DNA of 63,018 nucleotides, taken from assembly GCA_021295815.1 (NCBI GenBank), contig JAGWBQ010000020.1, forward strand, positions 1 to 63,018. Direction: 5' to 3'. Source of the stretch: Gemmatimonadota bacterium (lineage in GTDB: Bacteria > Gemmatimonadota > Gemmatimonadetes > Longimicrobiales > Gaopeijiaceae). The notes beneath the pieces were generated by a model that was not told the DNA's origin, searched no databases, and worked only from the letters and a program-made list of their open reading frames with translations. Shown here in pieces: positions 29,422 through 33,181 of this stretch (positions are counted from its first letter, which is position 1; every line of letters begins with the position of its first letter). Made by a program: the position numbers and the translations under genes.

Positions 29422-29910
29422 ATGACATCAGGATCCCCCGGTTCCCGGCTTTGCGCCGCGAAGGGCGCGGCCTTGATCGCGCTTCTGGTCGGTATGCTCG
29501 CCGCGCCCGGCTGTCGCGAATCGGCGCTCGGGCCGGATGTCCCCGAAGACGACGTGGTGGTCGCCGACGGCCGCGACTGGGGAGACGACCCCTACGTGGT
29601 GAACGCGGCCGCCGTCGAGGGACACCAACTGACCATCGAAGTCTCATTCGGCGGCGGCTGCCGCCGGCACGACTTCACCCTGGTGATCTCGAAATCGTTC
29701 AGGGAGTCGGATCCCGTGCAGCTCCCTGCCGTGCTCGCCCACGATGCGAACGGCGACACATGCCAGGCATATCCGACCGAGTCCCGCGTCTTCGACCTCG
29801 CTCTCGTCAGGAACCGCTACCGGCAGTTCTACGGACCCGGTCCGGGCAAGATCGTGCTGCGAATCGCGGGCGTGCCCGGTGACGATCTCGTGTACGAATT
29901 TGACGAATAG
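29422..29910 (+). CDS. Putative lipoprotein, 162 aa
   Basis: The start at 29422 (MTSGSPGSR) follows a GGAG by six bases; an in-frame ATG lies 12 codons upstream. A hydrophobic signal (ALIALLVGMLAAPGC) ends in a lipobox-like APGC. The mature part includes an acidic segment (DVPEDDVVVADGRDWGDDPY), two cysteines in the body (GGGCRRHDFTLVISK, DTCQAYPTES) that may form a disulfide, and a C-terminal GKIVLRIAGVPGDDLVYEF strand pair. The pattern suggests a small secreted beta-sandwich domain. No family was recognised. It is convergent with the BlaI-type operon. Confidence 0.7.
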   Translation: MTSGSPGSRLCAAKGAALIALLVGMLAAPGCRESALGPDVPEDDVVVADGRDWGDDPYVVNAAAVEGHQLTIEVSFGGGCRRHDFTLVISKSFRESDPVQLPAVLAHDANGDTCQAYPTESRVFDLALVRNRYRQFYGPGPGKIVLRIAGVPGDDLVYEFDE

Positions 29911-30181: not shown

Positions 30182-30476
30182 TCAGCTTACGGTATTCGCG
30201 TATAGTTCTGTAAGAACTTTACGCAACTTCTTGCCTTGATCGACCCGCACGTCCGCGACCGCCGTCGTCGTCGTGTTGGTCACGGACCCGTAGAACCGCT
30301 GGTCGCCGGATCGTACGAGATCGACAGGTCGACGCCCCTGCGGCTGTCGGTGGCGGTTTCGTCGAGATTCCAACGCTCGCCACCTTCCCCCGGTTCGGTC
30401 GAACCGGTCGTGCAGGCGGCGAGGAAGGCCACGAAGGCCGGATCGCCGCACGGACAGCAGGTGTCATTCCTGTCAT
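30182..30476 (-). pseudogene. Frame-disrupted FxLYD-like lipoprotein gene (paralogue of 32105-33010)
   Basis: An ATG at 30476 overlaps the BlaR1-type stop (ATGA), but the reading frame is broken twice. The first frame gives MTGMTPAVRAAIRP. A second frame carries the end of a lipoprotein signal, FVAFLAACTTGSTEP, and then WNLDETATDSRRGVDLSISY. A third frame carries FYGSVTNTTTTAVADVRVD and ends KVLTELYANTVS. The last part matches the neighbouring lipoprotein's VFVGSVTNTTPRVLPQVRVE, so this is a related gene. Two frameshifts could be real decay or sequencing error. It is the fourth gene of the operon. Confidence 0.7.
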
Positions 30477-31669
30477 CGGTTTTCTCCTTGCGCAGTAGTG
30501 GATGTCTGGGCCTCCGGGGCAGGCGACGCGGAGTAGCGCTCCCGGCGCTCGCGGACCAAATGCGCCTGCGGTTGCTCGTGTTCGGGCGGCCGAGCGACTT
30601 CGGGTGTGTGCCGACTCTCGTGGGACCGGTCCGCACCGGGAGCCACCGCCGGAGCGAACGCCAAGGCGAGGAAGAGAAGGCCCGTTGCGCTCGCGTGTTG
30701 CCAGCGGCGCGATGGCGCCTGGAGCGAACGACGGTCGTTCAACAGACGCCGAACGCGGAGCTCCAATTGCGAGCGCCGTCCACCGATGCCGGGGACGGGG
30801 CTGTGGCGGTCGCTCCGCATCACCCAGCGGGCCACCTCCGCCAGACAGCTCGCCATGGCGAAACGGTCCTCGCACTGACTGGCCGCCCAGTCGTCGCACA
30901 GCTCTTCGGCGGCCAGGCGAACCTCGCGCACGGCCAGCCGAAAGAGCGGCTGGAAGAAGAGGACCGCCTGGAGGATATTCAGCACGGCCAACCGGATCGG
31001 GTCGCGGCGGAGATGGTGGGCGACCTCGTGGCCGAGGAGCGCGCGGAGCTCGTCTTCGTCCAATTCATGAAGTGCGCGCACGGGCACGCAGATCTCGCGA
31101 CGGTTGCCAACGCCCAACGCAACCGGCGAGCCCAGGTTGTGGCTCTCCGTGAGACGCGGCAGCGGGTCCAGGGCCGCCTTGCCGCAGATCGACGCCAGCG
31201 CCTCCGAGACTCGCGGATCGACGACCGGCCCGCGGTCGGCAAGCCGCCGTCTCAAGTTCTCCAATCGGAGAGTGTGGGAGGCGAGAGACCCCAAGGCGAA
31301 CACAACCCACACGGTGCCGGCCCAGGCCAACCAGCCTGGAGCGACCGCGGTTTCCCCGTCGTGGGCATCCTCGCCGCGGGCTTCCGCATCCTCGGGGTAA
31401 GCGGAAACCGCCCTGTCCTCATGGCCCGGCTCCCGCCCGACCTCGTGTTCCCCGCCCACGATGAACGCGGACACCGGAAGACGCCAGACCGCCGAGTCCG
31501 ACGAGGTCAGCGAGTGGACGGTCGGCGTGATCAGGCTGGCGGCGAGCGCCGTGTACCAGATGGTTTCCCGGAGACGCGCCGGCGTCCTGGGAAAGAGTCG
31601 CAGGCCGAGCCACGCGCCGCCGCACCACAGGGTGCTGTGGACGAGAAATGTCAGGAGCCACACCGTCAT
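30473..31669 (-). CDS. BlaR1/MecR1-type M56 membrane metallopeptidase
   Basis: A 398-residue integral membrane protein. Predicted TM helices lie at about 3-22 (LLTFLVHSTLWCGGAWLGL), 34-55 (IWYTALAASLITPTVHSL), 105-125 (GTVWVVFALGSLASHTL) and 325-345 (TGLLFLALAFAPAVAPG). The zinc protease motif HEVAHH is in LLGHEVAHHLRRDP. Unlike staphylococcal BlaR1, no penicillin-binding sensor domain follows the last helix; there is only a His/Pro/Glu-rich tail of about 50 residues (HESRHTPEVARPPEHEQPQ). It overlaps the BlaI-type repressor (ATGA at 31666). It presumably inactivates that repressor on an unknown signal. Confidence 0.88.
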   Translation of the reverse strand: MTVWLLTFLVHSTLWCGGAWLGLRLFPRTPARLRETIWYTALAASLITPTVHSLTSSDSAVWRLPVSAFIVGGEHEVGREPGHEDRAVSAYPEDAEARGEDAHDGETAVAPGWLAWAGTVWVVFALGSLASHTLRLENLRRRLADRGPVVDPRVSEALASICGKAALDPLPRLTESHNLGSPVALGVGNRREICVPVRALHELDEDELRALLGHEVAHHLRRDPIRLAVLNILQAVLFFQPLFRLAVREVRLAAEELCDDWAASQCEDRFAMASCLAEVARWVMRSDRHSPVPGIGGRRSQLELRVRRLLNDRRSLQAPSRRWQHASATGLLFLALAFAPAVAPGADRSHESRHTPEVARPPEHEQPQAHLVRERRERYSASPAPEAQTSTTAQGENR

Positions 31670-32052
31670 TTTCCGGCCTCATTCCGCTTCGTCTCCACGA
31701 TCTCCTTCAGGCTCGCCAGATCGTCCGGTTGGATCTCCCCGGACTCGGCCAGGTGGTTGACCAGGGCCGTGCTGTCCCCGCCGAACAGGCGCTGCACGAG
31801 GGCGTCCACCATCCCCGCGCGGACGTCGGTCTCCGCGATCGCAGGCCGGTAGATGAACTGCCGTCCGTTCGTTCGGTGCTCCACGCACCCGTGCCCCTCC
31901 AGCTTGCGCAGCATCGTCTTGATCGTGGTAACGGCGAGACCTCGTTCCTCGAGAAGCGCCCGGTGAACCTCGATCGCCGGGGCTTCGCCACGCTCCCAGA
32001 GCACGCGCATGATCGCGAGCTGAAGGTCGCCAAGCTGTCGTTTCCGTCTCAT
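31666..32052 (-). CDS. BlaI/MecI/CopY-family transcriptional repressor
   Basis: A 128-residue winged-helix repressor. The start at 32052 (MRRKRQLGDLQLAIMRVLW) follows the family pattern L-G-x-L-E-x-x-x-M-x-x-L-W; the frame is open far upstream but without homology. The recognition region TTIKTMLRKLEGHGCVEHR is typical of the family, and the C-terminal dimer helices (VQRLFGGDSTALVNHLAES) are present. It lies 52 bases after the E/G/H-rich lipoprotein and overlaps the M56 peptidase gene. It likely binds the two ACTA-N6-TAGT sites at 33071-33100, repressing the whole operon including itself. Confidence 0.92.
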   Translation of the reverse strand: MRRKRQLGDLQLAIMRVLWERGEAPAIEVHRALLEERGLAVTTIKTMLRKLEGHGCVEHRTNGRQFIYRPAIAETDVRAGMVDALVQRLFGGDSTALVNHLAESGEIQPDDLASLKEIVETKRNEAGK

Positions 32053-32104
32053 CGTCTTTCCGCGGTCGAGCCGGGCTCTGGCCCGGGCGGTCGCTGTCCG
32101 GGAT

Positions 32105-33010
32105 TCATTCGCGATCGTCCCGCCCGGACCTCGCCGCCAGATCGACGGCGAACGCCTGCATCTCGCCGCGCAGGATCTGAAGCTGGTTGTAGACCGGCCG
32201 GAAGGCCGCTCCGCCCGGGCGCGAATCCTCTCCCCCGCCGTGTTCGCCTGCCTTTTCGCCGCGTCCTTCGCCGCCGTGTTCTCCGGCGCCCTCGCCGCTC
32301 TCCTCGCCGCCGCCACCGCCGTGGCCTTCCTCGACGCCGGTTTCCGGGTGGCTGACCCAGGCGCCGAACTCGTTCCCGAAGGCGCCAAGTTCGACAGCCA
32401 CCGTCTGCCCGGGAGCGACATCGACGCGCCTCGTCGGACCGAGCTCCGTGCCGTTGTCCAGGTGGACCTCGACGCGCACCTGCGGAAGGACCCGGGGGGT
32501 CGTGTTCGTTACCGAGCCGACAAAGACCTGCGTCCGCGGGTCGAACTCCAGGACCAGGCGTGCTCCGTTCACGAAGAGACGGTTCTGCTTCGTCATCTTC
32601 GGAACGTAGGCGCCTTCCTCCTCGCCTTCCTCCCCCTCGGCTCTCTCCTCTCCGCCTCCCTCCCCGCTATGACCATGTTCGTCGCCGCCGCGCTCCTCAC
32701 CGCCCTCGCGACCGACGTGCTCGCCTTCGCCTTCGCCGCCTGCCCGGCTCTCCGCCCGGCCTGCCTGCGGCGCGGCCATATGGATTCCGAGTCCCGCCTC
32801 GACCCGTAGTTGACGCAGGTCGGCGCGGGCCTGCATCACCAGGTCGTGGAGTTGGTCCGCGTCCGGGCTATCCGCTACCGGTGGTTGCTCCCGCACCTCC
32901 TGCACCGGCTCCTGCGCGTCGGACGCGAGAGCCCTTTCGCCGTCCTGGCACGCGACGATCCCGAACCCGGCGACCCCGAGCGTCATCAGGTACATCTTCG
33001 TGATCTTCAT
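32105..33010 (-). CDS. E/G/H-rich lipoprotein with FxLYD-like domain
   Basis: A 301-residue exported protein. The start at 33010 (MKITKMYLMTLGVAG) follows a strong GGAGGAAAT; the lipobox is GIVAC. It has a helical segment (about 30-65, DADQLHDLVMQARADLRQLR), a low-complexity Glu/Gly/His/Arg tract (about 80-125, HVGREGGEERGGDEHGHSG), a beta domain LVLEFDPRTQVFVGSVTNTT resembling FxLYD, a second E/G/H tract (about 220-255) and a C-terminal helix (FRPVYNQLQILRGEMQAF). The acidic/His tracts could bind metal ions. It is first in the BlaI-type operon. The function is unknown. Confidence 0.8.
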   Translation of the reverse strand: MKITKMYLMTLGVAGFGIVACQDGERALASDAQEPVQEVREQPPVADSPDADQLHDLVMQARADLRQLRVEAGLGIHMAAPQAGRAESRAGGEGEGEHVGREGGEERGGDEHGHSGEGGGEERAEGEEGEEEGAYVPKMTKQNRLFVNGARLVLEFDPRTQVFVGSVTNTTPRVLPQVRVEVHLDNGTELGPTRRVDVAPGQTVAVELGAFGNEFGAWVSHPETGVEEGHGGGGGEESGEGAGEHGGEGRGEKAGEHGGGEDSRPGGAAFRPVYNQLQILRGEMQAFAVDLAARSGRDDRE

Positions 33011-33070
33011 CCTCGATTTCCTCCTGGAGCTGGGCAGCGCTCGGGGCGTCATCTCGCACCCCGCGCAACG

Positions 33071-33100
33071 ACTACCGCACTAGTTGACTACCGTCCTAGT
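33071..33100 (-). promoter_or_regulatory. Two tandem BlaI/MecI-type operators
   Basis: ACTACCGCACTAGT at 33071-33084 and ACTACCGTCCTAGT at 33087-33100, 16 bases apart. Each has the form ACTA-N6-TAGT, exactly the half-site spacing of the MecI/BlaI operator (ACTACATATGTAGT type). They lie 60-90 bases ahead of the lipoprotein start on the minus strand, where the promoter should be; a TTGGAC candidate -35 overlaps the distal copy. The geometry is seen directly; binding by the operon's own BlaI-type repressor is inference. Confidence 0.75.
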
Positions 33101-33181
33101 CCAACGGATCGCGAAGGTTCCGCACGGAGAGGAAAAGACGGTGCGGTAACCGGTCGGGACCCTCCCCGGCGCACGCCACCT

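Follow-up and report, generated by a model that had tools for sequence, protein, structure and literature searches.

The window (the whole stretch of 63,018 nucleotides that was analysed) carries four genes on its minus strand, in the order lipoA, BlaI-type repressor, M56 protease and a decayed lipoB. A tandem operator, here called O1, lies upstream of lipoA. The features are listed below in the direction of transcription.

33070-33101, minus strand: O1 tandem operator, two adjacent 16-bp dyads, starting 91 nt before the lipoA ATG
33010-32105, minus strand: lipoA, 301 aa, exported protein; alternative upstream start at 33052
32053-32104, minus strand: gap between lipoA and blaI; the O2 cluster of most relatives is absent here
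32052-31666, minus strand: BlaI-type repressor, 128 aa (PF03965, 9.9e-30, profile positions 1-114 of 115)
31669-30473, minus strand: M56 membrane protease, 398 aa, with a BlaR1-like core (PF05569, 1e-12, over the cut-off)
about 30476-30240, minus strand: lipoB, read as a pseudogene; remnants of the lipobox, TEPGE and SVTNTT across three frames

The sequence has ATGA overlaps between the BlaI and M56 genes and between M56 and lipoB, where the lipoB ATG lies on the M56 stop codon, as expected for a single transcript. No Rfam element was found in the operon region, and a sigma-70 scan of the region, which is uninformative for this phylum, found no promoter. A DtxR/MntR-type metal-dependent repressor (PF02742, PF01325; 36421-36933, plus strand) is encoded some 3.4 kb upstream of the operon. 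A putative lipoprotein with a GGGCRRHDFTLV motif, which has no Pfam or NCBIfam match, is convergent with the operon (29422-29910, plus strand).

The exported proteins LipoA and LipoB

The structure predicted for LipoA consists of a leader, a helix (residues 49-71), a tract containing Glu, Gly and His, a β-sandwich (142-223), a second such tract and a final helix (268-300). The helices and the β-sandwich are modelled with high confidence, and the tracts are disordered. The FxLYD-like domain contains the SVTNTT motif. LipoA resembles FxLYD proteins (NF038353) in its predicted β-sandwich and in weak matches to the model: 28 of the 29 aligned LipoA and LipoB members match it, at best with 1.4e-4, and LipoA of the window scores 15.1 bits against a curated cut-off of 23. 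It differs from them in adding the two helices and the low-complexity tracts. The helices are present in operon-linked LipoA only, being absent from the aligned stand-alone paralogs and from LipoB. A PDB sequence search with LipoA found no relative, and a fold search with its model returned generic β-sandwich matches only, none at E values up to 0.001. Two strands carry invariant alternating residues, R179/E181/H183 and H221/E223, which could form a shared ligand site. No Cys/Met-rich sites were found.

The original prediction described LipoA as a lipoprotein rich in Glu, Gly and His. The tracts are indeed mainly Glu and Gly, but the His content is modest (3.6% of mature LipoA, compared with 1.8% for the proteins of the window; 1.6-4.2% across orthologs, the lowest value being found in one), and His is concentrated instead in the tail of M56. 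The lipoprotein assignment is not supported by the comparison with orthologs. Only LipoA of the window and four close orthologs have a Cys, most orthologs have none, and a plausible lipobox (IVAC) is present in the window alone. LipoA is therefore best termed an exported protein, because the lipobox Cys is not conserved.

Stand-alone exported relatives (L060, L068, L071, L072) have GEHGEGGEHGEG-type tracts and the same FxLYD-like domain, and occur in varied neighbourhoods without BlaI/M56 of the operon type. Two further stand-alone relatives (L062, L067) do have a BlaI/M56 pair within a few kb. They were not counted as operon cases, because BlaI/M56 pairs abound in these genomes and the two in question are of another type.

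In the relatives, intact LipoB is a lipoprotein of 127-148 aa that has a lipobox and a single FxLYD-like domain. The lipobox is conserved in the aligned intact operon copies (LAAC or similar, then Cys), and is broken in the window. One piece of lipoB in the window is 59% identical to intact relatives (E 4e-13). The window copy aligns over the first ~240 nt with several frame-disrupting indels, after which homology stops and the 3′ part is lost. The predicted gene order and the SVTNTT motif shared by both proteins are therefore confirmed, but the second gene as found in the window is, judged by its sequence, a pseudogene rather than an expressed second lipoprotein. Sequencing error is unlikely to be the whole cause of the breaks, given the several indels and the 3′ loss.

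The repressor and the protease

The repressor has a full-length winged-helix domain of the BlaI/MecI type, with PDB matches to BlaI and MecI. Its alignment with S. aureus BlaI is free of gaps across the cleavage segment, which is LVLNF in S. aureus and LVNHL here, and S. aureus MecI was likewise aligned through this region. S. aureus BlaI is cleaved at N101/F102, and N99-H100-L101 of the present BlaI are invariant in the ortholog alignment. The cleavage region thus appears to be intact and equivalent to the segment cleaved in S. aureus BlaI, and cleavage by M56 is predicted. The window genome has two further BlaI genes (L073, L074) at 25-27% identity, and L074 is also accompanied by an M56-like gene.

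The copper repressors CopY/TcrY belong to the same superfamily, and BlaI of the window scores 71.8 bits against the CopY_TcrY model, far under the cut-off of 121.95. CopY binds KACANNTGTA, and its response is to metal rather than to a protease (PMC7253601). Unlike CopY, the present repressor has no C-terminal Cys-X-Cys metal motif, which was not found anywhere in the BlaI ortholog alignment; the operon contains no copper ATPase, and its operator is not KACANNTGTA.

M56 is a multi-helix membrane protein with a zinc site formed by HEVAH (214-218) and a distal Glu, E255; H214, E215, H218 and E255 are invariant in 21 orthologs. The assignment draws on PF05569, on this conservation and on a profile match to BlaR1 (8exp, 5e-5) that covers the protease core only. 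The second His and the distal Glu are 37 residues apart, the same spacing as between H205 and E242 of S. aureus BlaR1, which we take to be the remaining zinc ligands of that protein. The BlaR1 structural report names His201 and Glu202 as zinc-site residues (PMC9834060).

The original prediction that M56 lacks a penicillin sensor is borne out: Pfam and NCBIfam profiles gave no transpeptidase or penicillin-sensor match, and the protein ends ~53 aa past its last predicted membrane helix. The BlaR1 protease is controlled by the sensor together with an extracellular loop (PMC9834060). Here, by homology, only the corresponding loop and a tail would face the periplasm. The predicted model of M56 is poor (mean pLDDT 56), so its topology rests on BlaR1 homology, and a fold search from the model is meaningless. 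Both of these parts, the TM2-TM3 loop (51-112) and the tail (346-398), are rich in His and Glu. In the tail, His accounts for 9.9% and Glu for 16.7% of the residues; the corresponding values for the cytosolic part are 3.8% and 7.0%. The tail is of low complexity and varies from 25 to 66 aa among orthologs, its only near-invariant positions being H350 (21/21), E357 (20/21), E363 (19/21) and H364 (20/21); the loop retains E74 and H103. The composition of the putatively periplasmic tail suggests metal or pH (proton) sensing.

The system thus resembles BlaR1-BlaI and MecR1-MecI of S. aureus (PMC9834060) in the aligned cleavage region, the zinc-ligand spacing and, by homology, a loop and a C-terminal segment that lie outside the membrane. 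It differs in having no penicillin-binding sensor, β-lactamase or PBP2a gene, in its operator sequence and in its output of exported proteins. A rival explanation is a response to β-lactams or cell-wall damage, in which M56 would detect wall stress by an indirect route, such as peptidoglycan fragments, and LipoA and LipoB would protect the envelope. The ancestry of BlaI and M56 and the export of both LipoA and LipoB fit such a response, and a peptidoglycan fragment triggers the BlaI system of B. licheniformis (PMC3305447). We consider it unlikely, given the missing penicillin-binding sensor, a tail of 25-66 low-complexity residues, and operon genes that at the loci examined are LipoA, BlaI, M56 and LipoB, with no β-lactamase or PBP among them.

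Distribution and the operator

Full-length LipoA was found in 24 of the 395 Gemmatimonadota genomes surveyed, at 25 loci, all from two families. A further 27 genomes have relatives that are weaker or partial. The combination is therefore not unique to this genome, which would have told against the original prediction. BlaI of the window is 77-86% identical to its orthologs in 24 other genomes; this group (at least 77% identity) comprises 25 genomes, and the next-nearest BlaI has at most 52%. The ortholog is present in all 24 genomes with full-length LipoA, and the sole extra genome, G138, lacks lipoA. BlaI and M56 adjoin lipoA at 24 of the 25 loci, the exception being G152, where the pair is on another contig. 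An intact LipoB is encoded next to the operon at 19 loci, in two of which (L049, L055) it sits between lipoA and blaI; five loci lack it, and it is broken only in the window. Searches found no LipoA relatives on plasmids, and no conserved metal-related neighbour gene was seen travelling with the operon. It is concluded that the arrangement of exported protein, BlaI and M56 is a real, conserved variant of BlaI/M56 systems.

Upstream of every full-length lipoA is a 32-bp pair of inverted repeats with the consensus GACTA-N6-TAGTC-AACTA-N6-TAGTC. In the window this operator, O1, reads GACTAGGACGGTAGTC-AACTAGTGCGGTAGTC and contains four ACTA-type half-sites, and shuffling gives an expectation of 0 matches in the window. 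It is found at 25/25 lipoA loci with at most two mismatches. Majority-base conservation is 0.87 inside O1 but only 0.50 in the sequence immediately downstream; further upstream it is 0.46. We scanned 24 genomes for the pattern, allowing one mismatch and using the reversed pattern as a control. It was found in 23 of them, always before lipoA, with two matches in the genome that has two lipoA copies; the one scanned genome without it is the genome without lipoA. There was no match away from lipoA in the 24 genomes, in a scan tied to the 16-bp spacing that would overlook single dyads, or sites spaced like O2, at other places, and the control gave zero matches. A match in G398 is regarded as chance, since it has three mismatches and lies at the end of an apparent carboxypeptidase gene.

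Most relatives have a second, less regular cluster of half-sites, O2, with a 15-bp spacing, 44-62 nt before blaI. In G152 the operon is naturally split, with operator, lipoA and lipoB on one contig (L044, G152:C36) and O2, blaI, M56 and lipoB on another (L088, G152:C78). The lipoA of this genome retains a perfect O1, and BlaI would have to act there in trans. G347 has two diverged operon copies (L053, L054), each with its own operator and only one with lipoB. In G138 the BlaI-M56 ortholog pair (L087, G138:C171) has a partial O2, and lipoA was not found in the genome.

An inverted-repeat operator upstream of the regulator's own operon is characteristic of BlaI/MecI systems, and O1, conserved at every locus and exclusive to the operon, is a good candidate for one. 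A close precedent exists in C. thermocellum, where BlaI_1845 (Clo1313_1845) was shown by DAP-seq and EMSA to use the half-site GACTAT, four copies of which form two inverted pairs in front of the BlaI_1845 operon; its regulon is a single operon with BlaR1 and two hypothetical genes (PMC8457756). O1 shares this design of four half-sites in two inverted pairs upstream of a single operon. Because O1 is conserved, operon-exclusive and matches the C. thermocellum operator, BlaI very probably regulates its own operon, the output of which would be LipoA and LipoB. O1 and its fit to the C. thermocellum operator are the strongest evidence for BlaI control of these proteins. The suggestion that the exported FxLYD-like proteins are the regulated output is thus upheld by an operator found only before lipoA and by the co-occurrence with BlaI in 24/24 genomes.

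The comparison points to a GACTA four-half-site design common to Clostridia and Gemmatimonadota, and O1 provides an exactly defined operator with which BlaI targets can be sought in this little-studied phylum. The two operons differ in phylum and in content: one of the C. thermocellum hypothetical genes is described as peptidoglycan-related (PMC8457756), and here the partners are FxLYD-like exported proteins. The module, predicted to be distinct, is distinct as a variant but not as a principle, since C. thermocellum already provides a BlaI/BlaR1 regulon that consists of one operon and includes hypothetical genes (PMC8457756).

A further rival explanation would see BlaI and M56 as no more than ordinary local regulators within a hitch-hiking gene cluster, and would assign LipoA no conserved role in physiology. 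This would be in keeping with the patchy distribution (24/395 genomes in two families) and with the loss of LipoB and O2 in the window. We regard it as very improbable, because the operator is retained at all 25 loci, the split one included, and pN/pS indicates purifying selection on all three intact genes. For lipoA, pN/pS against relatives is 0.31-0.37, with purifying selection as in the relatives. Values for the other two are raised in the window lineage, to 0.22-0.29 from 0.08 for BlaI and to 0.40-0.46 from 0.28 for M56. Together with the loss of LipoB and O2, this means that the system may be weakening in the window lineage. The window genome is also small (2.47 Mb, mostly ~4 Mb in operon-bearing relatives), and it looks as if the system is being trimmed there.

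A proposed dedicated switch and its possible cue

We propose, with a probability of about 0.74 for the regulatory circuit exclusive of its cue, that the operon encodes a self-regulated BlaI/M56 switch dedicated to itself. The proposal draws on what can be read from the sequences, namely gene order, co-occurrence, the conservation and exclusivity of the operator, and the intact protease and cleavage regions; from these we infer DNA binding by BlaI, its cleavage and the direction of control. Without signal, BlaI dimers on the two dyads of O1 would repress lipoA-blaI-M56-lipoB. A periplasmic cue would reach M56 through the acidic, His-rich TM2-TM3 loop and the C-terminal tail, in place of a penicillin-binding domain, and the cytosolic zinc site would then cut BlaI in the LVNHL region. 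Repression would be lifted, and LipoA, with LipoB where intact, would be made and exported. Whereas switches of this type usually induce penicillin resistance, the present one appears to control one or two small exported proteins via one conserved site per operon.

LipoA or LipoB might themselves provide the input, as a sensor or feedback ligand that contacts periplasmic M56 and holds it off until titrated, in the manner of CpxP-type feedback. The position of lipoA as first gene and its strict co-occurrence with the BlaI/M56 pair speak for such a role, and the two confident helices confined to operon-linked LipoA would suit a partner-specific contact. G138, however, retains BlaI-M56 without lipoA, and the domain also has stand-alone relatives that lack a BlaI/M56 partner of the operon type, so that we find a ligand role possible but rather doubtful.

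For the dedicated switch, the somewhat favoured cue is acidity or a divalent metal, and LipoA might then serve for binding or buffering in the envelope; this is offered as a tentative suggestion. A more specific version, which we hold to be doubtful, is that M56 directly senses divalent metal or periplasmic acidity via the short disordered His/Glu tail and the loop, which would replace a folded sensor, and that the answer is an exported FxLYD-like binding protein. If true, direct sensing by tail and loop would constitute a class of M56 receptors without a sensor domain. By analogy, BlaI-paired M56 proteases are commonly taken for antibiotic sensors. Given the conserved partner set, the dedicated operator and the lack of a penicillin sensor, the signal of M56 and its output both become testable questions in this operon.
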